Assembly: GCA_017643365.1 (NCBI GenBank)
Contig: JAEPNO010000014.1
Location: 1 to 64,000 of the forward strand
Source of the DNA: Balneolaceae bacterium
GTDB taxonomy: Bacteria; Bacteroidota; Rhodothermia; Balneolales; Balneolaceae
Direction: 5' to 3'
DNA: 64,000 nucleotides
The notes beneath the pieces were generated by a model that worked only from the letters and a program-made list of their open reading frames with translations, ran no database searches and was not told where the DNA came from. How positions within the stretch are numbered: the first letter of the stretch is position 1; each line of letters starts with the position of its first letter. The position numbers and the translations under genes are program-made. Shown one piece after another: positions 23,619-34,736 of the stretch.

Positions 23619-23794
23619 CCTCTCGTGCCAGACATTCACACAAATTAACAATAGTTGAAATTTATAATTCTCTTCCAGTGGAAGAGGAAGAAAATGATTT
23701 CTGGAAAACAGGTGCAGGTGCTTTTTTATTGGCTATTCTTATTCACGGAAAGTTAAAATTAACCTCTCTTCATCTTAGAAAAGAGGTTTAATGT
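23619..23794. other. Intergenic edge of the AT-rich region
   Basis: Holds a CTCTTCCAGTGGAAGAG hairpin (about 23668-23684) and, on the minus strand, a terminator-like AACCTCT / AGAGGTT stem (23761-23788) followed by AATTTT that would end the DUF2188 operon. A 66-codon frame crosses it, but it overlaps the previous gene and is not protein-like. This is a plausible left border of the foreign region. Confidence 0.5.
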
Positions 23795-24043
23795 TTAATG
23801 CTCCCGATCTCTTGGAGGAAATGGATCCTTTTTCCCAATGGTATCTTTACTCCGGATTCTCCCATTTAGACCCATTGTTTTTAGTTCCCCTCCTCCTTGT
23901 TTCAAAAGGTTTGCACGAGCAGCATTTTCAGCCTCTCGTTGTGTATTGTGTAAAGAAGCAGGTTTAGATGCGCTGTCTTTTTTATTTGCCCATAATCCAT
24001 CTTCTTTTCTTCGGTATACAGATCTGTCATTAGATTTACTCAT
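23795..24043 (-). CDS. DUF2188 domain protein
   Basis: 82 aa. Features of the DUF2188 family: RSVYRRKEDGLWANKKDSA at the start, SLHNTQREAENAARANL and the Gly-rich middle, then GLNGRIRSKDTIGKKDPFPP, the typical ending. DUF2188 proteins are small, basic and of unknown role, and are frequent on islands and near defence genes. It lies 17 bases behind the 301-aa gene on the same strand, so the two form an operon. Function unknown. Confidence 0.8.
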   Translation of the reverse strand: MSKSNDRSVYRRKEDGLWANKKDSASKPASLHNTQREAENAARANLLKQGGGELKTMGLNGRIRSKDTIGKKDPFPPRDREH

Positions 24044-24060
24044 TGCTATTTCTCCTTTAG

Positions 24061-24966
24061 TTAATTGAAGAGTTCATTTATTTGTTGATTCCATCCTTTT
24101 TTGTGAATAATTCTATGGGAGTGAAACTCACCTGTAAGGATTTCTTTCTTTGAAAGATGTGAGTAAGCCTCCCAATTTTCATTAAAAACATAAGTTGCAT
24201 TGCCATATGTTGTATTTTCGAGGATATAAATTCCCTTTTTAGGGAAACCGAAAACCCAATATCCACTAAACCCTCCTCTACCTACAGCTATATAATTGGG
24301 ATTGTGACTTGTTATAGTTCTGACTCTATTTTCAATTACTGGTTGGTTTCCCGAAGGAGCTCTTTGGATATTTTCTCGAACATGGTCTTCTACCTCTTCC
24401 CAGGGATATTCACCCGGTGGCAAAATCTGCCAGTTTAGCCTTTTAATCTTTGGAACTTTAAAGTTCTCAAAATCTGAATTTAGAACTACACATTTTCCGA
24501 ATATCTCTAGAAATAGGTTAATTATGTGTTTCACAGTTTCCTCTTGCTCGCCTCTTTTGAAGGCTTTTGAAACTAGATACTTAGAACCGTCTGCTTCGAT
24601 TATAGTCAGTTCTTCGCTTGGAGGAGCTATGAATTTTCTTGGATATCTTTTATATGGAACATCCACGACACGTGAGTAAGGATTTCCATTCCAATCTTCC
24701 CATTTCCAAAGAATCTGGCGATAAGCAGTCTCCTTTGGTCGATCAGTTAGTTTGATAAATTTTCCGTGTGCATTAAATCCCGTTACATTTCCTATAGAAT
24801 TTGGAAGTATTTTTTCGCCAACTTCTAAATCATCTGTAAATCCTATGCTTGATAGTTCTTTTGAATTTTCTTCTAAATCAGTAATTGAAATGTAAAAGCT
24901 CTCTCCATCTGCTATATGATTTAGGTGAGATCCAAGCGACCTTATTCTTTTTTGTTCAATAATCAT
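24061..24966 (-). CDS. Unknown 301-aa protein, operon with DUF2188
   Basis: A 301-aa soluble protein with no signal peptide or membrane helix and no family I recognise with confidence. The N-terminal half is charged and strand-rich (residues 1-125). The C-terminal third is more conserved-looking: NYIAVGRGGFSGYWVFGF, YILENTTYGNATYVFNENW and LSKKEILTGEFHSHRIIHKKGW. It is the first gene of a two-gene minus-strand operon and is divergent from the sigma/ImmA operon. AT-rich, unlike the core genes. I have an impression that such sequences recur in island or defence contexts, but cannot prove it here. Confidence 0.6.
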   Translation of the reverse strand: MIIEQKRIRSLGSHLNHIADGESFYISITDLEENSKELSSIGFTDDLEVGEKILPNSIGNVTGFNAHGKFIKLTDRPKETAYRQILWKWEDWNGNPYSRVVDVPYKRYPRKFIAPPSEELTIIEADGSKYLVSKAFKRGEQEETVKHIINLFLEIFGKCVVLNSDFENFKVPKIKRLNWQILPPGEYPWEEVEDHVRENIQRAPSGNQPVIENRVRTITSHNPNYIAVGRGGFSGYWVFGFPKKGIYILENTTYGNATYVFNENWEAYSHLSKKEILTGEFHSHRIIHKKGWNQQINELFN

Positions 24967-25064
24967 AATAATTTCCTCTTAATGTTTTTATTTTTTATTG
25001 TCCCTACATATATATATAGCTATTGAAGAACATCGTTTTACAAATCTTTTTGAAATTTCTTTAA

Positions 25065-25078
25065 AGTAGCTAGCTACT
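25065..25078. promoter_or_regulatory. 14-bp palindromic operator candidate in the divergent promoter region
   Basis: AGTAGCTAGCTACT is a perfect palindrome, 20 bases ahead of the sigma-like gene's start codon in the 131-base region between two divergent operons. An (AT)n tract lies at 25011-25018. A repressor or the operon's own regulator binding here could control both directions. Confidence 0.5.
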
Positions 25079-25097
25079 AATTGTAATAGCACCAAAT

Positions 25098-25691
25098 ATG
25101 ACCGATAAAGCAGATACAATATTAGATGGGTTATCTAAAGATGAGTGGATCGCAATCTATCGAGATCTGGTTAGATATGGAGAATACCTGCTAAGGATTT
25201 ATGGGATCAAATATGATACCCAAGGTATTAACGCTAACGATTTTGTAGGGAGAGTAGTTATGAAAGTTTTAGATGTAGATGCCGATGACCATCGTGTTTG
25301 GAATCCAAAAAAAAATCCAGATGTAGTGAAGTTTTTTAAAGGATGTATATCAAGTGAAATTAGTAATCATTTGGTATCAAAAAGACATTCAACAACAATT
25401 GATATGAATATAGATCCAGAGTTAGATTTTTTTGAGAACATTGGTACTGACACATCAATTATATCTGAAGTTGATGCAAACATTATTCAGGAAAAGATAA
25501 TTAATAAACTAATGGAAGAAGATGTGGAACTTGTTGAAGTTTTGTTTTTAATTCAGGAAGATATTTCATTTCAAGACATTGCTAAGAGAAGGTCATATCC
25601 GAATACTAGGAAAGTTTATTATGCTAGAGATAAAATCCGATCAATATCTGATGAAGTTTTAAATAAACTTAGTGAGGAAAAAGATGAGTGA
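25098..25691 (+). CDS. Sigma-70-like factor (ECF-type domains)
   Basis: 197 aa. Residues 45-95 look like sigma region 2 (INANDFVGRVVMKVLDVD..FFKGCISSEISNHLV), and residues 135-190 look like region 4 with a helix-turn-helix (VEVLFLIQEDISFQDIAKRR, TRKVYYARDKIRSI). This is the pattern of short RNA polymerase sigma-like proteins found on bacterial islands; the similarity is by eye and region 2 is divergent. It is the first gene of a tight three-gene operon, overlapping the next by 8 bases, preceded by a 14-bp palindrome. The family to which it belongs often controls its own operon. Confidence 0.65.
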   Translation: MTDKADTILDGLSKDEWIAIYRDLVRYGEYLLRIYGIKYDTQGINANDFVGRVVMKVLDVDADDHRVWNPKKNPDVVKFFKGCISSEISNHLVSKRHSTTIDMNIDPELDFFENIGTDTSIISEVDANIIQEKIINKLMEEDVELVEVLFLIQEDISFQDIAKRRSYPNTRKVYYARDKIRSISDEVLNKLSEEKDE

Positions 25692-26058
25692 ATTAGGAAA
25701 AATACTTCAATGGGTTGAAACTTTTGAAGACGAAAAGAAGAGAGAGGAATATCTTAAAAGCAAAGGTTTTGAAATTGAAGCAATCGACAACAAGGCAATA
25801 GATATATTTGATCAGATTAGCTCTAAAAATATTCTAAGGAGAGCTAGACATAGAAAAGCTCTTTTCGAAAGAGCTAGTGAACTTATTCAAGAAAGAGATT
25901 CGATTAATGTAAAAGAGCTTATTTCATCATTTAAAACAAAATCTTCAAATCAATTTGCTTACCAGTTTTCTAAACTTGATAACGTCTCTGATGAAGATGT
26001 ATTAAATATGTTAAAAGACGAGGAATTGCTAAAAGTAATTGAGAATCTTGAAAAATAA
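25684..26058 (+). CDS. Small helical protein between sigma-like and ImmA-like genes
   Basis: 124 aa from the ATG at 25684, which follows a GTGAGGAAAAAG ribosome site; a GTG at 25672 would place the start inside that site. Almost wholly helical and highly charged (EDEKKREEYLKSK, RRARHRKALFERASELI), with no Cys, signal or membrane segment. The start overlaps the sigma-like gene by 8 bases, and the end is 5 bases from the peptidase gene. No family recognised. Position and composition suggest an anti-sigma or adaptor protein acting between its neighbours; that is inference. Confidence 0.65.
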   Translation: MSELGKILQWVETFEDEKKREEYLKSKGFEIEAIDNKAIDIFDQISSKNILRRARHRKALFERASELIQERDSINVKELISSFKTKSSNQFAYQFSKLDNVSDEDVLNMLKDEELLKVIENLEK

Positions 26059-26063
26059 GCTTT

Positions 26064-26834
26064 GTGAGTAGAGGATTAAGGGTTGCTGATTTAGTACGAA
26101 ATGAGTTCTACCTTAAAGGGCCAATTCCTTACGAAATACTTGTGGAAGTCTGTTTTGCTAAAGATGCTTTTGTTAAGCAAGAAAAAATTCATGGTGCTCA
26201 AGGAAGAATTTTATTCAGTAAAAACTCTTCTGCTTCAATAATCACTATTAACTCTGAAATAAAATTTGAGTCTAAAAAGAAGTTTGTTTTAGCACATGAA
26301 CTTGGTCATAGGCTTTTACATTATAGAAAGATGAATTTTTTATGTAATGATAAAGATGTTAGTAGTTGGAGCAGTAATAATAAGTTTGAATTTGAGGCTA
26401 ACGAGTTCGCAGCTGAACTATTGATGCCTCAACGATTGATTTTGGAGATAACAGATACAAAAATATTTTCAAAACAAGAGGTCTTAAAGATTTCTAAAAA
26501 CCTTGGATCAAGTATAACATCTTCCAGTATTCAATATAGCAAATATGGGCATGTTCCCGTTTATGTTATAGCCTCTTCAAATGGAAGTATTGATTGGTTT
26601 TCTAAACCTTCAGATTTTTACCTTGGCCATTTTGAGAAAGGTCAATCATTACCTAGAGGATCCTTTGCAAATAAGTTTTTTGATGATGGTAAGAAAGAAA
26701 ATGATAAAAGTATTTGTTTAGCAAAAGATTGGTTCCCAGATGCTAAACAAGACCAGTATTTATATGAAGAGTGCTTTTACTTTGAAAACTATAATTCAGT
26801 CATCACCTTCTTATGGATATGTAATGAATACTAA
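26064..26834 (+). CDS. ImmA/IrrE-family metallopeptidase
   Basis: 256 aa starting at GTG 26064. The zinc site is clear: HELGH at residues 78-82, followed by the second family signature EFEANEFAAELLMP around residues 108-121, which gives the third ligand. The last 100 residues (GHVPVYVIASSNGSIDWF..FLWICNEY) form a C-terminal domain that may sense a signal, as in other members. Family members cleave a partner regulator, such as ImmR or DdrO, on stress. Here the candidates are the two upstream gene products. Last gene of the operon; the next feature is a tRNA-type terminator on the opposite strand. Confidence 0.9.
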   Translation: MSRGLRVADLVRNEFYLKGPIPYEILVEVCFAKDAFVKQEKIHGAQGRILFSKNSSASIITINSEIKFESKKKFVLAHELGHRLLHYRKMNFLCNDKDVSSWSSNNKFEFEANEFAAELLMPQRLILEITDTKIFSKQEVLKISKNLGSSITSSSIQYSKYGHVPVYVIASSNGSIDWFSKPSDFYLGHFEKGQSLPRGSFANKFFDDGKKENDKSICLAKDWFPDAKQDQYLYEECFYFENYNSVITFLWICNEY

Positions 26835-26877
26835 CCACCTTTATCTCAAAAAAGTAATTGCTGCACCTTATTAAACA

Positions 26878-26922: not shown

Positions 26923-26938
26923 TGTAGCGTGGGACGGA
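26923..26938. repeat. Left attachment site (tRNA 3'-end copy)
   Basis: TGTAGCGTGGGACGGA matches 15 of 16 bases of TGTAGCGTGGGGCGGA at 34661-34676, which is the 3' end of the tRNA-Met gene read on the plus strand. This is the duplication that integration into a tRNA 3' end leaves. Confidence 0.8.
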
Positions 26939-27040
26939 GTAATTCACACTTCTATCCGCTTCCAAATTATTGGCACATTCAACCAAAAATAGCCTTTAAA
27001 CATCATTATAAACGTTTTTAAGTTCCAATGAAAAGGAAAA

Positions 27041-27074
27041 TAAAACAATAATTGTTTTACTATTGTTTTACCCC
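27041..27074. repeat. Arm-type repeats at the left end of the element
   Basis: ATTGTTTTAC occurs at 27051-27060 and again at 27062-27071, 11 bases apart (one helical turn), with an inverted near-copy (TAAAACAAT) at 27041-27049. The 16-base form ACTATTGTTTTACCCC (27059-27074) recurs at 34590-34605 near the other end. Placement beside the integrase gene at both ends fits integrase arm-binding sites. Confidence 0.6.
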
Positions 27075-27130
27075 TTACTATTTATTAGCTATATTCGCTT
27101 AACAATATTGGTAACCATAACGGCGAAATC

Positions 27131-28399
27131 ATGGCAACCTCATTCCATTTATACCTTAAGGGGTATCCGAAAACGAAAACTAATAAGGACGGGGAAAAGA
27201 GAGTAAAATCACCTAAAAAAAACGGTGAATACCCTATCTATTTACGGATCACTAATAACCGTAAACACAAATACATTAGTACCGGCTTATCAGTTAAAAA
27301 AGATGACTGGCACAAAGACAAAGAAGAAGTCCGTAGAAGCCACGACAATTATAAAGCACTCAATAAAACGCTACGTGCAAAAGTCAAAGAAGCTGAAAAT
27401 GTTCAATCTGATTTGGTGGAACAAGGGCAAGAATCTGCAAAGGCTATTCAGGAAAGAATAAAGAATACCCAAACAGCTGATTTGTTTGAAATGGCTAAAG
27501 AATTGGAAGCCAATTATTCTAAAACTAAAAAGTATTACTCGTCTAGAACCTTGAAAGGTTTATTAAACAAGTTGGAAGAATTTGAAGGAGAATCTTCATT
27601 GCCATTCAATAAGATTGATTCAAATTACCTACAACGTTTTGAAGAGTTTCTGAGAAATGAACACGGAAACAAAGACTCTACTATCAATAAAAAATTTGAG
27701 CCGTTTAGAAAGCTTATAAACATGGCTTTACAACGGCACTTAATACCAATTGATCCGTTTATCAGTTACTCCGTTCCAACACGAAAGAAAGCAACTTCTA
27801 AAACTAAATTAACTATTGAGCAAATTCGAGCTATTGAAGCAATCGAGCTAAAAAAAGGTTCTTATGATTGGCATATAAGAAACGCTTTCTTATTTAGCTT
27901 TTATAGTGGCGGTATTCGATTTGGTGATATTTGTTGCCTTACATGGAACAATGTGAAGGACGGGAAATTGAGCTATCAAATGAACAAAAATGAAAAGCCT
28001 TTTACTTCTGATTTAAATGAATACCAAATTCAAATATTAGCTAATTACTCCGGCGCCGGTTCTGAATTTATCTTTCCATTTCTAAACAATCATAAAGACT
28101 ATTCTGATCCGGTTGTATTAAGAAAAGCAATAAATATTCAGAATGTAAAAGCGAATGGTAAAAGCACTAAAACGAAAAAAACCGGACTCAAAAATATAGC
28201 TGAACTAGCAGGAATTACTGAGAATATATCTTTTCATGTTTCAAGACATTCATTCGCACAATACGCCGTATCTGATAAGGGGTTGAGTATGTATGAAACA
28301 ATGCAAGTGTTGCGACATAGTAAGATCGAAACTACTCAAAGATATTTGAAAGGCTTAGACGAAGAATTAGCTAATAAAGCAATGAAAAAGGTGTTTTAA
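27131..28399 (+). CDS. Tyrosine-type site-specific integrase
   Basis: 422 aa. N-terminal arm-binding part (residues 1-105, with PIYLRITNNRKHKYISTGLSVKKDDW), a SAM-like core-binding domain (about 110-215), and the catalytic domain with Arg in FSFYSGGIRFGDICCLTW, the H-x-x-R box HVSRHSFAQYA, and the nucleophile Tyr in KIETTQRYLKG. This is the Bacteroidota-type phage integrase with an Arm-DNA-bind_5-like N-terminus. It catalyses insertion into and excision from the tRNA-Met site. The next gene begins on the base after its stop codon. Confidence 0.95.
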   Translation: MATSFHLYLKGYPKTKTNKDGEKRVKSPKKNGEYPIYLRITNNRKHKYISTGLSVKKDDWHKDKEEVRRSHDNYKALNKTLRAKVKEAENVQSDLVEQGQESAKAIQERIKNTQTADLFEMAKELEANYSKTKKYYSSRTLKGLLNKLEEFEGESSLPFNKIDSNYLQRFEEFLRNEHGNKDSTINKKFEPFRKLINMALQRHLIPIDPFISYSVPTRKKATSKTKLTIEQIRAIEAIELKKGSYDWHIRNAFLFSFYSGGIRFGDICCLTWNNVKDGKLSYQMNKNEKPFTSDLNEYQIQILANYSGAGSEFIFPFLNNHKDYSDPVVLRKAINIQNVKANGKSTKTKKTGLKNIAELAGITENISFHVSRHSFAQYAVSDKGLSMYETMQVLRHSKIETTQRYLKGLDEELANKAMKKVF

Positions 28400-29623
28400 A
28401 TGACTAAAGATGAATTTGAAAAATTCTGCCTTTCGGAATTGGAATACATTGAAGAGTACAAACAAAAAGACAATTTCGATTTTCAACCAGCGGATCAATA
28501 TTTCAGTTGGGTTTATATGGGTTTTCACGAACCCTTCAAGGAATTAATTCAATCAGGTAAACTTAAAGATGACTTATTTGATGATATTGAAAAGCTTAAA
28601 ACAGAGTTAAAGAGAGTTCAAATAGATATACATCAATGGATAATGAAAGCGTGTGTATATCTCAGATTTATTTATCTAAATGATTCAAACTTGCCTTATC
28701 AGAAAAAAGCGGCGCTATTTAGTTCTGTGTCAATAAAAATACTCAATGGCTATAACTCTGAATTAATACTAAAGAAGTTCATTTTTGATTGCGGGGTATC
28801 ATATAAACCAGATCAATTAGATAAACTGGAATCTGTATTAGACAGGCGAGATAAAATATTAAAGAACACATTACAATTAATAGAAAAGCGAATAACAAAC
28901 CGGCAAATACTTACAATAAATAACGAGCTTGAATCGAGTCTAAAGAAACTTTCTTCAAACATAGAATTAATTACTAAACCAATTTCAGAGTCAGTTAAGC
29001 AAACAAGAGAAACTTTAAATAAAATAAGTGTTCAACTAAAGGAACTTATTAAGCAACATCGAGCTGAATTTGATCGCAGGTACGACAAATATTGGTCATC
29101 AATGGAAGCGTACTTAAAGTATCACGGCTACATAGTGCCAAGCGATCGTAACGAGTTCTATCAAATATTTATCTATGAAATTCTAAAAGATGAAGATGAC
29201 TCCTTTGAACGATCATTGGAAAGGAAAGATTTTATTTCATTTCACAAAATCATAGAATCTAAACTACTAAAGGTTAATCAGGAAAATTTTAACACAATTA
29301 CCCAAGATTCATTCTTAGAAATAGGCACTTCTAATCCTATTTCTCATAACCTTAAAGAACTTGCAAAACGCTTTTATAATAGAAGTAAGAAAAAAAGTTT
29401 TACTGAGAACGAATATTATAACGCTCTTACTATAATAGAAAAATACCCTAAAGATAGTTATCAATCACTGATCCGTAAGATACAAAGCAAATTCTCGTGC
29501 TATATAGATCATGAATTACCGGAATCAGGAATGGGAAAAAATAATAAGTTTCTGCAAAGACTCATTAAGAACTATGACACTGAAACGGGAAATTCGCGCA
29601 AAGGAAACAGTAATACCCAATGA
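28400..29623 (+). CDS. Unknown coiled-coil protein abutting the integrase
   Basis: 407 aa; the ATG follows the integrase TAA with no gap, so translation is probably coupled. Mostly helical, with a long coiled-coil stretch at about residues 155-225 (LTINNELESSLKKLSSNIELITK..). The N-terminus is acidic, the C-terminus basic (RKIQSKFSC..KGNSNTQ). No motif for a nuclease, ATPase or relaxase is visible. Constant position beside the integrase suggests a role in excision or control, or a cargo function. Unassigned. Confidence 0.6.
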   Translation: MTKDEFEKFCLSELEYIEEYKQKDNFDFQPADQYFSWVYMGFHEPFKELIQSGKLKDDLFDDIEKLKTELKRVQIDIHQWIMKACVYLRFIYLNDSNLPYQKKAALFSSVSIKILNGYNSELILKKFIFDCGVSYKPDQLDKLESVLDRRDKILKNTLQLIEKRITNRQILTINNELESSLKKLSSNIELITKPISESVKQTRETLNKISVQLKELIKQHRAEFDRRYDKYWSSMEAYLKYHGYIVPSDRNEFYQIFIYEILKDEDDSFERSLERKDFISFHKIIESKLLKVNQENFNTITQDSFLEIGTSNPISHNLKELAKRFYNRSKKKSFTENEYYNALTIIEKYPKDSYQSLIRKIQSKFSCYIDHELPESGMGKNNKFLQRLIKNYDTETGNSRKGNSNTQ

Positions 29624-29670
29624 GTTCATTAAATACCCGTAAAAATACCCAAATACCCAGATTGAATACC
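29612..29670. repeat. AATACCC repeats upstream of the excisionase-like gene
   Basis: AATACCC at 29612, 29632, 29644 and 29652, and AATACC at 29665, all in the same direction. They start in the last codons of the 407-aa gene and end 51 bases ahead of the HTH gene, so they could bind that protein (excisionase or repressor) or mark a replication site. Confidence 0.6.
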
Positions 29671-29721
29671 TGAAATAGCAACAAGTAAGTTTTCAGCAAC
29701 AATTAATTAAAGCTGAAAGCA

Positions 29722-30006
29722 ATGCAGGCATACATACCCACCAAACAAGATTTAAGAGAGTTTATTCGCCAAGCGGTTAAAGAAGAATTTAAAACTTCCA
29801 TACCCCAAGCAATCAAAACGGCGAACCGCAAAGAATGGCTAACTACAGACGAAGTAATGGAAATACTTCAATGTTCACGCCGTCATGTTCAACATCTTAG
29901 AGACTCCGGCAAGCTACCTTTTACTCAACATCGAAGAACCGTTCGATATAGATACAATGACGTTGAGCATTTTCTCAACAAGGGATTTGTAGAAGCCGAG
30001 ATTTAA
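29722..30006 (+). CDS. Helix-turn-helix protein, excisionase-like (HTH_17)
   Basis: 94 aa. The N-terminal 40 residues are a helical basic stretch. The C-terminal half is a MerR-like winged HTH (EWLTTDEVMEILQCSRRHVQHLRDSGKLPF), then a beta wing (RRTVRYRYNDVEHFL). This is the HTH_17 excisionase-like pattern common on Bacteroidota integrative elements. Such proteins direct excision or regulate the element. It follows an AATACCC repeat cluster that may be its target. Confidence 0.85.
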   Translation: MQAYIPTKQDLREFIRQAVKEEFKTSIPQAIKTANRKEWLTTDEVMEILQCSRRHVQHLRDSGKLPFTQHRRTVRYRYNDVEHFLNKGFVEAEI

Positions 30007-30008
30007 AA

Positions 30009-30284
30009 ATGCGGTCAACAAAAAAAGGTCATGCAACGGCGAAGCAGCACGACCTTAATATTGGTAACCGGAAATCCGGCACGAGTAATTTAAGCTTTCA
30101 TCAAAGCATGTGCAATGCTGCTAAAGACGGGCGTAATCTCGCTTTTCTTGTACGCAATTCTGTTTCTGGATTAGATACCATAGAAAAGGCTTTTAACGGC
30201 TTAAAAGCAAAATATGAACCATTCTTAGACGAAGTATTTAGAAACAGTTTTGACGAAGAAATAGAGAGGTTAACAAATGAATAA
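30009..30284 (+). CDS. Small unknown element protein
   Basis: 91 aa, starting 3 bases past the HTH gene stop and overlapping the ATPase gene by 8 bases, which supports it as a real operon member. The basic N-terminus (STKKGHATAKQHDLNIGNRKSG) may bind nucleic acid; the rest is helical. No family recognised. Confidence 0.6.
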   Translation: MRSTKKGHATAKQHDLNIGNRKSGTSNLSFHQSMCNAAKDGRNLAFLVRNSVSGLDTIEKAFNGLKAKYEPFLDEVFRNSFDEEIERLTNE

Positions 30285-31251
30285 GGAATTAAACATACCG
30301 GAAGGGGTAAACTTGAATGATTTGAATCCGGATACATGGTTTTCCCTTTCCGATCCACTTAAAGAACCTGTTCCACCTTTAGAATTTATTATTGAAGGTT
30401 ATTGTGCTAAAGGATTAATAACTGTTATTGGTGGAAGCGCCGGAAGCGGTAAATCTCTATTCAATCAACTTCTATTTCAGAAACGAAATAACGAATTATT
30501 ACCAACTAATAAAGGTAAAGCAATTTATTTCACGGGTGCAGATAGTTCAGAAATTGAACTCCGGCGCAGGGCAAAAGCGATTAAAACAAACAGAGGTCTT
30601 TATACTGTAGCATTACCTGAAAACCTTTATTGCGTGGTTACCAATGAAGTATTTATGAAAGAAGTTGAAACGCAAATCTTAAACGGTGGTTTTGATGCTG
30701 TAATATTTGATACAATCGCAGATTTTCACGAAGGCAATTTGTATGAAGCGGAAAAAGCTAATATTACAATGCAGCATTTCACACGATTAGCAAGAACTAC
30801 TAATACAGCTGTAATACTAATTACCCATACTCGAAAAGGTTCAAAGATTAAATCGAAATACGATGTAGAAGATATTTCAGACTCTCGAATTTTTGCAACT
30901 AAAGCCGATTTTGTTTTTGGATTAAGGAGCGAATACCAATCAGACAAATCAAACCTGATTGAACTACAATGTATTAAAAGCCGTAGCGCTCAAGCTATGC
31001 CACCGTTGAGAGCTTCAATTCACTATGACAGTTTCATGAGTCAGCTTAAAATTTCGAAAACGGATAGGCTTTTTTCTGTAGAGCTTGAAACACAATCAAA
31101 AGAAGAACAGCGACTGCATAAAATAAATGAAGTTGGAAGATTGATTAATGACGGTCATTCGGTTAGAGAGGTATCCGAAATAATAGGTATTGCAACAGGA
31201 ACGGTCTCAAATTACAAAAAACAGTTTGAACAGCTTTCACAGACTCAATAA
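30277..31251 (+). CDS. RepA-like AAA ATPase / helicase with C-terminal HTH
   Basis: 324 aa of the RecA-like RepA/AAA_25 family. Walker A GGSAGSGKS at about residues 52-60, Walker B region DAVIFDTIADF near 147-157, and the sensor-type VILITHTRKGSK around 185. The C-terminal 60 residues hold a helix-turn-helix (SVREVSEIIGIATGTVSNYK), which could bind the iteron-like repeats that follow the gene. Members are replicative helicases or partners of primases on small plasmids and integrated elements. It is followed by a VirE-N-type primase gene, so the pair probably replicates the excised element. Confidence 0.85.
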   Translation: MNKELNIPEGVNLNDLNPDTWFSLSDPLKEPVPPLEFIIEGYCAKGLITVIGGSAGSGKSLFNQLLFQKRNNELLPTNKGKAIYFTGADSSEIELRRRAKAIKTNRGLYTVALPENLYCVVTNEVFMKEVETQILNGGFDAVIFDTIADFHEGNLYEAEKANITMQHFTRLARTTNTAVILITHTRKGSKIKSKYDVEDISDSRIFATKADFVFGLRSEYQSDKSNLIELQCIKSRSAQAMPPLRASIHYDSFMSQLKISKTDRLFSVELETQSKEEQRLHKINEVGRLINDGHSVREVSEIIGIATGTVSNYKKQFEQLSQTQ

Positions 31252-31337
31252 AGTGTTCATCGTTCAAATCACATACCTATATGAACGTGAACAACTAATG
31301 TTCAACAACTTGTTCAACCTTGAACACCAAATTGAAC
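31227..31337. repeat. Iteron-like GTTCA/TGAAC cluster, possible replication origin
   Basis: GTTCA or its complement TGAAC occurs nine times in 111 bases (31227, 31255, 31262, 31282, 31288, 31300, 31312, 31321, 31333), in both directions. The cluster sits between the helicase-like ATPase and the primase gene and stops 4 bases ahead of the primase ATG at 31341. Position and density are what an iteron origin would show. Confidence 0.6.
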
Positions 31338-31340
31338 ACT

Positions 31341-32195
31341 ATGTTTAATACTGATATTAGCGTATTCAAAAACATTTACTCAGAACCTCAAACTATAAAT
31401 TTGAGAAGCTGGATACTCGCATGTAAACAAGGCTCTCGTTTTGCCAAGCAAGTAATAGAATATCGAAATATAAAAAATGAAGAGCTGAAAAAGATGCTAC
31501 CACTCGCTACCGTTGGTGCTATTTGTGCAAATGGTAGAAAGCTTGAAAATGTAAAGTCAAAAACAGGTTGGATAGCATTAGATATTGACGCAAAAGATAA
31601 TCAGCATTTACCCAATGCGGAGTGTATTCGAAATGAAATTGCCAAAATTAAGAATGTAGCTTTTGCAGGTCTTAGTACAAGTGGTAAAGGCGTGTGGGCT
31701 TTAGTAAAAATATCGAACCCAGATAAACAGGCACAACATTTTGAATGCATAATCAAAGACTTTAATTCGTTCGGAATTAATCTTGATACAAGTAAAGGGC
31801 GTAACCCAAATGATGCACGCTTTTATAGTTACGATCCTGAAGCTATCATTAAAAATGAAATAGTTGTTTACACCAAACTACCAACGGAGCGTACTCAGAG
31901 TAAAGCGCCGGAGATTGTTAAAATAAAATCTAACAGATATGTAATGAGTGCTTTTGAATCTGAAATTCAAGCTCTTAGCAAGGCAAAAAATGGTATTCGA
32001 AATGAAACACTTTTTAAATGTTCTGCAGCTTTAGCAGGATTTGTTGCAGCCGGCGCATTGAATGAAATCGAAGTACGCCAAGCAATCGAACAAACAGCTT
32101 TAACCATAGGTTTAAAACACTCTGAAATCAATTCAACAATTAACAGCGGATTTAATAAAGGACTTCAAACACCAAGAAATTTACAAACAACCTAG
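31341..32195 (+). CDS. Primase-like protein, BT4734/BF3469 (VirE N-terminal) family
   Basis: 284 aa from the ATG at 31341; a TTG at 31320 would place the start inside the repeat cluster. Family signature: LPLATVGAICANGRK, then GWIALDIDAKDN with paired Asp as in primase/AEP active sites, AGLSTSGKGVWALVKI and ARFYSYDP. A C-terminal helical domain (AGFVAAGALNEIEV) follows. These proteins act as primases of Bacteroidota mobile elements. Directly downstream of the RepA-like ATPase, so they are likely a replication pair. Confidence 0.8.
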   Translation: MFNTDISVFKNIYSEPQTINLRSWILACKQGSRFAKQVIEYRNIKNEELKKMLPLATVGAICANGRKLENVKSKTGWIALDIDAKDNQHLPNAECIRNEIAKIKNVAFAGLSTSGKGVWALVKISNPDKQAQHFECIIKDFNSFGINLDTSKGRNPNDARFYSYDPEAIIKNEIVVYTKLPTERTQSKAPEIVKIKSNRYVMSAFESEIQALSKAKNGIRNETLFKCSAALAGFVAAGALNEIEVRQAIEQTALTIGLKHSEINSTINSGFNKGLQTPRNLQTT

Positions 32196-32357
32196 CAGCG
32201 TTTAGGGTACCCCGATCAAATTCTTTTGAGCCTTTTGGAACCGCAAATCAATGACGCTACTATTTTTTTGTGTACGCAATTTTTCAAGGGGGGGGGTGGT
32301 TAGTTTTCTGCTCAACTGCTATAATCCACAAATTTATCTGTAACCAATTGAAAGGAT
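32196..32357. other. Leader and promoter region of the cargo genes
   Basis: Contains the G9 tract, a TATAAT hexamer at 32320-32325 (with no clear -35) and AAAGGA just ahead of the start. No gene. A T7 run lies at 32265-32271. Confidence 0.4.
32288..32296. repeat. Poly-G tract (G9), upstream of the YbjQ-fusion gene
   Basis: Nine G in a row, 62 bases ahead of the start codon at 32358 and 24 bases ahead of TATAAT at 32320-32325. In AT-rich DNA such a run is not expected, and a second G9 lies inside the gene. A slippage-prone tract beside a promoter can alter its strength. Confidence 0.7.
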
Positions 32358-33398
32358 ATGTTTTTTTCTACATCAGACAATTATGATCAAAGTGATATAG
32401 TAGAAAACTATGGGCTTGTCGATTCAACTATTGTAATTGGAGCCAATATTTTTAGGGATGTATTTGCAGGGCTAAGAGATATTGTTGGTGGAGAAACTAA
32501 GGGATATAAAAAAGACCTTGATAAATTAAAAAACGCTGTAGAGGAAGAGATTAAAATAAAAGCTTCAAAACTAGGGGCAAATGCAATTATTGCTATTAAA
32601 GTTGACATGGATGAAATTTCGGGGGGGGGCAAGTCTATGTTCATGTACCAAATGATTGGTACAGCTGTCAAATTAAAAGATGGTATAGCAGAACCTAACT
32701 CAGTCAATAAAGCTGAGGTTATTGACTTCGATGATTTTACTGAATTAAGAAAAAGAGTTGCCGCAAGAAATCGAATTATTAATGAGCCAAATAAAATAAA
32801 CAACTTTAGAGTAATAATAGAGAAAGATTGGTGGGATGAAGACCTCTATAGAAATCTAGTAAACATTATATTCGATAGTAATCGAGAACTCATTCCGGAG
32901 GATATAGCTCTTTTGTCAGCGGTGCCTCCAGAGTTTTATATCGATATCATTAAAGCTGATTTAGCTACGATAAGCAAGACTAGATTTTTTTATTGCATAG
33001 AATCTATGAAAAAACATAATTGGTTCAATGTGAATGATATACTTGAAATACTAAAATCAGAATCATACATAACTCGATTTAGAGGTCTGCACTTTATTTA
33101 TTTCAATAGGCTAAATTATTCCATAGATGACCTAAATGATTACAAAGTCTTGCTTTATTTTCTTAATAATAATTTCGATAAATCCATTACAACTGAAAAC
33201 TCGAAAGGAGTTTTTGGCTCAAAAGAAGTTCATCAATGCGTAAACTGTCTTGTAAACCGTCCAAAAGATGAGGGTAAAAGTTGCCCTAATTGTGGGGCAA
33301 ATTTTCTTGGTTTTAGAGAAGAGAATATTCAATTAAAGAATATCTACTATAAAATTCTCAGTATAATTAACACATTAGAATTTATATCAAAAGAGTGA
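32358..33398 (+). CDS. YbjQ-domain / zinc-ribbon fusion protein, poly-G tract inside
   Basis: 346 aa. Residues about 15-112 are a YbjQ/UPF0145-type domain (VDSTIVIGANIFRDVFAGL..ELRDIVGGETKGYKK..KLGANAIIAIKVDMDEI..MYQMIGTAVKL). A 200-residue helical middle of unknown type follows, and near the end there is a four-Cys zinc ribbon: CVNC and CPNC, 12 residues apart (about 298-317). Codons 88-91 contain nine consecutive G (32621-32629). Loss or gain of one G would stop translation within about 12 or 25 codons after the tract, so the gene can be switched off by slippage. It is followed 6 bases later by a 97-aa gene. Function unknown; YbjQ domains are pentameric barrels of unclear role. Confidence 0.7.
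   Translation: MFFSTSDNYDQSDIVENYGLVDSTIVIGANIFRDVFAGLRDIVGGETKGYKKDLDKLKNAVEEEIKIKASKLGANAIIAIKVDMDEISGGGKSMFMYQMIGTAVKLKDGIAEPNSVNKAEVIDFDDFTELRKRVAARNRIINEPNKINNFRVIIEKDWWDEDLYRNLVNIIFDSNRELIPEDIALLSAVPPEFYIDIIKADLATISKTRFFYCIESMKKHNWFNVNDILEILKSESYITRFRGLHFIYFNRLNYSIDDLNDYKVLLYFLNNNFDKSITTENSKGVFGSKEVHQCVNCLVNRPKDEGKSCPNCGANFLGFREENIQLKNIYYKILSIINTLEFISKE
32621..32629. repeat. Poly-G tract (G9) within the coding sequence
   Basis: Nine G in the YbjQ part of the gene (ISGGGKSMF). The present length keeps the frame open. This is the form of a phase-variable contingency tract. Confidence 0.7.
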
Positions 33399-33404
33399 CT
33401 TCAC

Positions 33405-33698
33405 ATGACACACTATGGGGGTACATTTCAAAAAGATCAATTAGAATTGATTGCACTAGCCTTTGCCCAATGTGAGAAAAATGAGAAAATGACAAGTTCC
33501 CAATTTATAGTGCCTGATCCTGGTCAGGTTACTTCTTTATCTGTAGATGATATTGATGATTACTATTACAGAGCGTTTAAAATGAATGCGCCGGTATTTA
33601 TAAATGAATCTAAAGTTTTGATTCTCGAATATCAGCAAAAAGAGCCTTTGGCGTTTAGGTACGGTCATTCTGCAATAGTGAGAGTTAAAAGCCTATAA
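33405..33698 (+). CDS. Small unknown protein, coupled to the YbjQ fusion
   Basis: 97 aa, starting 6 bases past the previous stop. No signal, no membrane segment; mixed alpha/beta (SQFIVPDPGQVTSLSVDDI, KVLILEYQQKEPLAFRYGHS). No family recognised. The tight spacing suggests that it is translated together with the poly-G gene and would share its expression state. Confidence 0.6.
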   Translation: MTHYGGTFQKDQLELIALAFAQCEKNEKMTSSQFIVPDPGQVTSLSVDDIDDYYYRAFKMNAPVFINESKVLILEYQQKEPLAFRYGHSAIVRVKSL

Positions 33699-34096
33699 AA
33701 GCAATGTTTCTACCATTACTTGAATATTTGAAGCCCTTAGAATCGAAATTTGAAAACTGTTTCTTACTATTTCCCAACTATTGATTGATTACGTTCCAAA
33801 GTGGGAAAGTGAGCAACACTAAGTGGGAAATCATTAATTCCCATTTCCCATTGTTATTACGCACCATACAAAGACTTTTTTCACACGGTAAAGGATATTT
33901 TTTCGGCACGATAAAGGAATTGTTTTTACAACGGTTTAAAAAGGGAGTGGATCCGGCACAATCGGACACTAAAAAAGGGAATAAGCAAAAAAGCCTACTC
34001 CCTTATAGGAATGGTTACACATTTATTTAAATGCATAATATTCTAATTTACATCATCTAAATTCTGAAGCAATAAAAAAATTTGTAAGGAATAGTT
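33699..34096. other. Non-coding stretch with repeats
   Basis: No credible gene. It contains the TTCCCA/TGGGAA cluster at 33771-33850 and 8-base complementary segments AAGGGAGT (33941) and ACTCCCTT (33997). An 81-codon frame (33785-34030) exists but starts inside the repeats and lacks protein-like composition. Confidence 0.4.
33771..33850. repeat. TTCCCA/TGGGAA repeat cluster
   Basis: Five copies of TTCCCA or TGGGAA (33771, 33802, 33824, 33838, 33845). Two are parts of the direct repeat AAGTGGGAAA spaced 22 bases, two helical turns apart. Possibly an operator or a second origin-type site near the right end of the element. Confidence 0.5.
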
Positions 34097-34390
34097 GTGA
34101 AAACGATCATACTACTAACAACTATCTTACTTTATAATATACAAACAGCAATTATGAGTAGAATAATAGACAGGAAAATAAAAACTAAGAAAACTGATAA
34201 TTATGGTGAAAACGTAACAAAGGGCACTTGTTATGCATTTATACTAGTTTCAATAATTTTCTTAATTGTACTTTTTATAGACTCAGATAATTGGGCAATT
34301 TATTTAGGTTTCTGTTTTACATCTTTAGTCTTCAGTTCACTATTCTATGCATTAGCAAATATTATTAGACTTCTGAAAAAGACTCTTTAA
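34097..34390 (+). CDS. Small membrane protein, unknown, on the element
   Basis: 97 aa with three hydrophobic helices (residues 1-18, about 41-58 and 63-85) and a basic loop after the first (SRIIDRKIKTKKTDNYG). The first helix could act as a signal anchor. No family recognised. It lies near the right end of the integrated element and is followed 10 bases later by a 38-aa frame, so they may be a pair. AT-rich. Confidence 0.5.
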   Translation: MKTIILLTTILLYNIQTAIMSRIIDRKIKTKKTDNYGENVTKGTCYAFILVSIIFLIVLFIDSDNWAIYLGFCFTSLVFSSLFYALANIIRLLKKTL

Positions 34391-34400
34391 TCTTGGATAA

Positions 34401-34517
34401 ATGAGTGAAGTACAAAGAGAAGCAATTGAACGTGAAAGGGATCGTATGGGATATGGGTTTTGGCGAACTGTTCGACCAATTCTTGGATTAGTAATATTAC
34501 TACCTTTAATCGCTTGA
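34401..34517 (+). CDS. 38-aa membrane peptide
   Basis: A short frame with a charged N-terminus (MSEVQREAIERERDRMGYG) and a hydrophobic C-terminal helix (PILGLVILLPLIA), ending in TGA. It lies 10 bases past the membrane gene and has the shape of a small single-pass membrane protein. There is no family evidence, and it may be a chance frame. Confidence 0.4.
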   Translation: MSEVQREAIERERDRMGYGFWRTVRPILGLVILLPLIA

Positions 34518-34589
34518 ACTCTTATGATCATTCTACATCTATAAAAAAATATCTGTAGCAGATAGTATAGAAAACAGGGACTTTGTTTC

Positions 34590-34605
34590 ACTATTGTTTT
34601 ACCCC
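34590..34605. repeat. Arm-type repeat at the right end of the element
   Basis: ACTATTGTTTTACCCC is identical to 27059-27074. It sits 56 bases inside the right attachment site. Confidence 0.6.
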
Positions 34606-34611
34606 AATGAA

Positions 34612-34652
34612 ATAAAAAAAGCCTATGCAATTATTATTAAATCACATAGGCT
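34612..34652 (-). terminator. Terminator of the tRNA-Met gene
   Basis: On the minus strand AGCCTATG / CATAGGCT arms around a 17-base loop, followed by T7, 10 bases past the tRNA 3' end. It lies inside the element, so the element carries its own terminator to restore the tRNA transcription unit. Confidence 0.75.
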
Positions 34653-34660
34653 AATTAGTG

Positions 34661-34676
34661 TGTAGCGTGGGGCGGA
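34661..34676. repeat. Right attachment site, inside the tRNA 3' end
   Basis: TGTAGCGTGGGGCGGA, 15 of 16 bases identical to 26923-26938; it covers the tRNA acceptor and T-arm 3' strands. Confidence 0.8.
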
Positions 34677-34736
34677 ATTGAACCGCCGACCTCACGATTA
34701 TGAGTCGTGCGCTCTAACCATCTGAGCTACCACGCC
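34663..34736 (-). tRNA. tRNA-Met (CAU anticodon)
   Basis: On the minus strand GGCGTGG..TAGCTCAG (D-arm), anticodon stem CACGACTCATAATCGTG with CAT anticodon, and T-arm GGTTCAATTCC are all present. The 7-bp acceptor closes with CCACGCT. CCA is not encoded. A CAU anticodon could also be tRNA-Ile2 if the C is modified, but the CTCATAA loop and the rest fit methionine better. Confidence 0.93.

Follow-up and report, generated by a model that had tools for sequence, protein, structure and literature searches.

The question raised by this locus is whether two long guanine runs on a single gene act as a genetic switch. The window, a 64-kb stretch of DNA from a Balneolaceae bacterium, belongs to the 88.5-kb contig C5, and the genome as a whole measures 3.77 Mb. 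A run scan finds nine consecutive G at 32288-32296 and again at 32621-32629, both on the forward strand and exactly where an earlier note on this DNA had located them. The first run lies between a primase gene and a cargo gene (32358-33398, +), the second within the coding sequence of the cargo gene. The earlier note had proposed a phase-variable locus on an integrated element, with a promoter tract grading expression, a coding tract switching it on and off, and selection for reversibility. Part of this stands: the tracts are real and rare, exceed a published cut-off, lie early enough for the coding one to switch the product off, and belong to cargo of a tRNA-Met element. The proposed selected or graded switching is not supported. 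Both runs are probably incidental homopolymers on an accessory gene, subject at most to unselected slippage.

An integrative element in a tRNA-Met gene

The cargo gene is part of an integrative element of about 7.75 kb (about 26924-34676) located in the 3' end of a tRNA-Met gene (anticodon cat, 34662-34736, -, detected with ARAGORN). The core repeat TAGCGTGGGRCGGA is present at both ends of the element, and a direct repeat of 14-16 bases (26923-26938 and 34661-34676) corresponds to the tRNA-Met 3' end. A congener, G032, provides the empty site. Its tRNA-proximal terminator matches the left flank of the element and its left-flank DNA is joined directly to an intact tRNA-Met gene, which indicates a precise insertion at about 26924-34676. 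With an integrase, att-like repeats and an empty site all found, the tRNA-integrated nature of the element proposed earlier is confirmed.

The genes of the element, all on the forward strand, encode a tyrosine integrase (27131-28399; Pfam Phage_integrase, 3e-15, with Arm-DNA-bind_5 and Phage_int_SAM_5), an excisionase-like HTH_17 protein (29722-30006; Pfam HTH_17, 2.3e-14), a RepA-like AAA_25 ATPase (30277-31251; Pfam, 1e-16), a BT4734-like primase-type protein (31320-32195; Pfam, 1.6e-10), the cargo protein and, 6 nt past the cargo gene, a 97-aa protein with no Pfam or PHROG match (33405-33698). Relatives of the 97-aa protein and of the AAA_25 ATPase were not found in viral contigs.

Sister elements occur in two other Balneolaceae (L071 and L073). 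They use the same tRNA-Met target, and their integrase and primase are 56-66% identical to those described here. Both carry the integrase, HTH_17 and BT4734-like primase genes, and L071 also has the AAA_25 gene, with 56-72% identity overall (65% for the integrase and 72% for AAA_25 of L071). However, they differ in the slot between the primase and the tRNA, which holds other genes, and in the primase itself, which is 384-399 aa long in the sister elements and 291 aa here. Neither of these two closest elements contains a G7 run. The primase-type protein of the present element is without the 90-110 or so C-terminal residues of its counterparts (L071:7382-8536 and L073:6753-7952), and its end looks as if it had been replaced by insertion of the cargo.

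A second element-like locus is present in the same genome (G000:C44:254975-255799; L048, L075), with a primase-type protein 46% identical to the one above and an HTH_17 protein. To the left of the element, positions 23622-26872 form a second low-GC stretch without a DNA match at the locus of the congener. An IrrE-type peptidase gene (26064-26834) matches PADLOC capP (1.9e-52) and stands behind two small genes of no assigned family.

The cargo protein

Pfam, alignment and an AlphaFold model (pLDDT 81.6) bear out the YbjQ-zinc ribbon fusion described earlier and place an all-helical domain between the two parts. Residues 1-106 form the YbjQ domain (Pfam YbjQ_1, 8.4e-25; 87.8 bits against a gathering cut-off of 23), and the model matches PDB entries 1y2i (TMt 0.87) and 1vr4. 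The profile score and the same predicted fold thus assign the protein to YbjQ (PF01906). The zinc ribbon cysteines C294, C297, C309 and C312 are invariant in the six members of the Balneolaceae set first aligned. A structure search of the PDB returned nothing significant for the helical domain beyond the YbjQ part.

The N-terminal 106 aa resemble known YbjQ/UPF0145 proteins (PF01906; 1y2i, 1vr4, 2gtc) in both sequence and fold. However, YbjQ of the E. coli type is a stand-alone protein of 107 aa without the SGGGKSMF turn, whereas here the domain is fused to the helical domain and the zinc ribbon. Homologues of the same or a related architecture were recovered from Balneolota, Bacteroidota and Alteromonas, from phage contigs and from a Salinibacter plasmid. 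Members of this YbjQ-KSMF family share the conserved turn, are 25-37% identical to the cargo protein over most of their length, and, like it, are repeatedly associated with integrases or prophages; those from Balneolota and Bacteroidota also share the fusion architecture.

The literature searched for the function of YbjQ or UPF0145 yielded passing mentions only. A surface or defence function had been suggested for the cargo. This finds no support in the predicted domains, and a defence function was rejected since neither the cargo protein nor two of its homologues matches a defence model in PADLOC.

Rarity of the G9 runs

Apart from the pair, the window contains no G or C run of at least 7, and a single C6 is its only other run of 6. 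Outside the element it holds 245 G3, 48 G4 and 5 G5 runs, and G6, G7 and G8 are missing from the whole window, which sets the two G9 apart. The whole genome has 17 G/C runs of at least 7, among them three G8 runs and three of length 9, and this pair accounts for two of the latter three. Under uniform placement, the chance that any two of three G9 runs fall within 333 bp is ~5e-4, a post hoc figure; when all 17 runs of G7+ are considered, it rises to 0.024. The pair is therefore notable but not decisive, because it was singled out by eye during scanning and the odds were computed afterwards. DNA folding at both tracts is no better than in shuffled sequences.

When codons for the cargo protein are drawn at random according to local usage, a G9 run appears in 0.7-0.8% of trials, which is not vanishingly rare across a genome's worth of genes. 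Moreover, 105 of the 129 genomes of the order contain G9 runs, usually a few per genome. The argument that AT-rich surroundings make chance unlikely leaves out of account that the protein itself imposes part of the coding run. The third G9 of the genome (C44:115944-115952; L003, L125) lies between two convergent genes. In one relative, at least 37 consecutive G were observed (G015:C2, from 586716-586752) together with 128 forward G9 matches in that genome; the long run is possibly a sequencing or assembly artefact.

The coding tract and a conserved glycine turn

The coding tract extends from the third base of codon 88 to the second base of codon 91 and specifies Ser88-Gly-Gly-Gly91, written TCG GGG GGG GGC. 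In the predicted structure these residues form the turn of a β-hairpin between strands 76-89 and 92-106. The motif of this turn in the YbjQ subfamily, [ED][IV]SGGGKSMF, is near-invariant in an alignment of 23 homologues, where G89 and K92-M96 never vary and at least 90% of the sequences have S88 and G90. At about 30 homologous loci, the turn is encoded by mixed codons such as GGT GGT GGC or GGA GGA GGA, and the G run never exceeds G5. To judge from these alignments, relatives share the amino acids of the turn but not the homopolymer, which is private to this gene. Since relatives keep the glycine turn anyway, protein constraint would account for much of the coding run. The proposed selection for reversible expression finds no support in such a pattern. 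Retention of a tract in homologous genes, a supporting though not strictly required sign of phase variation, is not seen here.

At its present length the tract is in frame and the product is 346 aa long. A G8 tract would lead to a TGA stop after 98 aa and a G10 tract to a TAA stop after 113 aa, as had been claimed for both frames; G11 also stops at about 98 aa and G7 at about 113 aa, while G12 restores the frame with one additional glycine. The truncated products lack part of the YbjQ fold and everything beyond it, so that slippage by one base would switch the gene off. Two of the features by which poly-G phase variation is recognised, a length of at least G7 and loss of the product on a one-base change, are thus found in the coding tract.

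Relatives fit for a comparison of tract length were sought widely. In the 129 genomes of the order no relative exceeds 40% identity over the full length, nor did the genome, viral, phage and plasmid collections supply one close enough. Viral and genome contigs gave no match to a protein query, and viral contigs none to an exact pattern of the flanking DNA; an alignment query recovered relatives at 25-49% identity only, and plasmids and phages gave distant relatives only.

The upstream tract

The upstream G9 ends 61 nt ahead of the ATG (32358) and 23 nt ahead of a TATAAT sequence (32320-32325, +). The latter is a candidate -10 element, although it may not be a promoter in Balneolota, and no good -35 element stands at the right spacing: the hexamer 17 nt from it is TGGTTA, a poor match that begins just past the tract. 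A promoter scan of the upstream region gave no sigma-70-type match, and no Bacteroidota-type promoter (TTTG/TAnnTTTG) was found there. Because the tract is outside the spacer defined by TATAAT, slippage would leave the distance between -35 and -10 unaltered. Graded switching at a promoter, the role assigned earlier to this tract, is thus not supported by its position upstream of the -35 site or by the promoter scan, which has no match at that site. Nor did any match place the tract in the spacer of a promoter of the sigma-70 or Bacteroidota type. The idea that the region is a conserved element was rejected, since the 129 genomes gave chance-level matches only and no convincing relative. The default reading of the upstream G9 is chance in an intergenic stretch.

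Comparison with known phase-variable systems

Slippage at a run of this length is plausible. The cut-off used by PhasomeIt in a survey of Campylobacter is G7 or more (PMC6321876), which G9 exceeds; a (G)9 gene of Helicobacter canadensis shows G8-10 in reads (PMC2823697); and in Neisseria meningitidis homopolymers of at least 8 are mostly variable even though mutS and mutL restrain phase variation (PMC5084427). The present host carries mutS1 and mutL, which, given the situation in N. meningitidis, does not exclude switching. As in the poly-G phase-variable genes of Campylobacter, Helicobacter and Neisseria, a long G run lies in the 5' third of the gene and a change of one base in either direction leads to an early stop. 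However, those genomes contain many tracts, with length variation at the level of reads and mostly in surface-modifying genes. Here, a single gene is concerned, and the tract lies on a glycine turn imposed by a protein motif. The other G7+ runs of the host are in ordinary genes or intergenic DNA and mark no contingency repertoire. No description of phase variation in this phylum was found in the literature searched.

Incidental homopolymers or a contingency locus

The reading that we favour starts from a YbjQ-KSMF subfamily that would require Ser-Gly-Gly-Gly at its β-hairpin turn. This lineage would have drifted to the codons TCG GGG GGG GGC, thereby creating the coding G9, and slippage possibly helped to attain or maintain a run of such length. 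At present the gene is full-length, with exactly the glycine count usual for the family, and a somewhat raised rate of slippage would produce occasional loss-of-function alleles with no selection for switching. Counted for this reading are the motif constraint, the limit of G5 in relatives, the commonness of G9 in the order, the lack of G7 runs in the sister elements, the presence of MutS and MutL, the ordinary siting of the other G7+ runs of the host and the position of the upstream tract outside the spacer. Counted against it are the clustering of two of the three genomic G9 runs on one strand of one gene, only 333 bp apart, the absence of G6-G8 from a window with two G9 runs, a length distribution of the kind that slippage-driven expansion might leave, and the fact that the coding run is over survey cut-offs and well placed for translational switching. 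The tract is potentially slippage-prone, and phase variation under selection is possible, at perhaps one chance in four.

In its translational form, slippage of the coding G9 would turn the cargo on at G9 and G12 and off at G8 and G10, to the benefit of a cell or element that gains from a mixed population. The severity of the truncations, the length of the tract, the variable (G)9 gene of H. canadensis and the accessory nature of a cargo often found beside integrases or phage repressors, for which costly expression could favour a switch, all argue for it. The private and motif-constrained tract and a host with mismatch repair but no contingency repertoire argue against it, and we regard it as rather unlikely. 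Control at two levels, with the upstream G9 tuning transcription and the coding G9 gating translation, is suggested by the equal length of both tracts on one gene and has a precedent in the promoter tract of Neisseria Opc, a tract of this kind being cited in PMC5084427. Given the 23 nt that separate the upstream tract from TATAAT, the poor -35 and the failure of both promoter searches, it is very improbable. Hardly more credible is an error of sequencing or assembly in one or both lengths. Homopolymers are error-prone, but the coding G9 yields the three conserved glycines and an intact frame that a one-base error would break, which disfavours an assembly error there; the upstream tract offers no such frame check. 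A bolder combination can also be envisaged, in which a mobile contingency locus evolved its poly-G inside the conserved glycine turn, three (or four) glycines meaning on, and the second tract modulates expression; we hold this to be unlikely, slightly more so than translational switching alone.

If the tracts do switch, they would represent a contingency locus that a mobile element carries and disseminates by integrating, in a phylum for which the literature searched describes no phase variation, and they would illustrate how a protein motif such as a glycine turn can seed a switch. As a caution, a poly-G run should be checked against conserved protein motifs before it is called a switch.

The YbjQ-KSMF family and its neighbours

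A more useful lead than the tracts may be the element itself, together with the little-studied YbjQ-zinc ribbon family, which recurs near integrases and phage repressors. Apart from phage genes and a HigBA-like pair, no gene partner is conserved across the fusion loci. In two prophage contigs (L105:6929-8526 and L109:7311-8911) the YbjQ-KSMF gene starts about 11 bases past a Peptidase_S24 gene of the phage-repressor type on the same strand, a placement suggestive of an accessory gene that the lysogen expresses. In two Belliella species (L095 and L099; 7088-7805), genes for a HigB-like toxin and an HTH antitoxin-like protein occupy the opposite strand immediately upstream of the YbjQ fusion, and a related HigB/antitoxin-like pair is found downstream of the fusion in L106.
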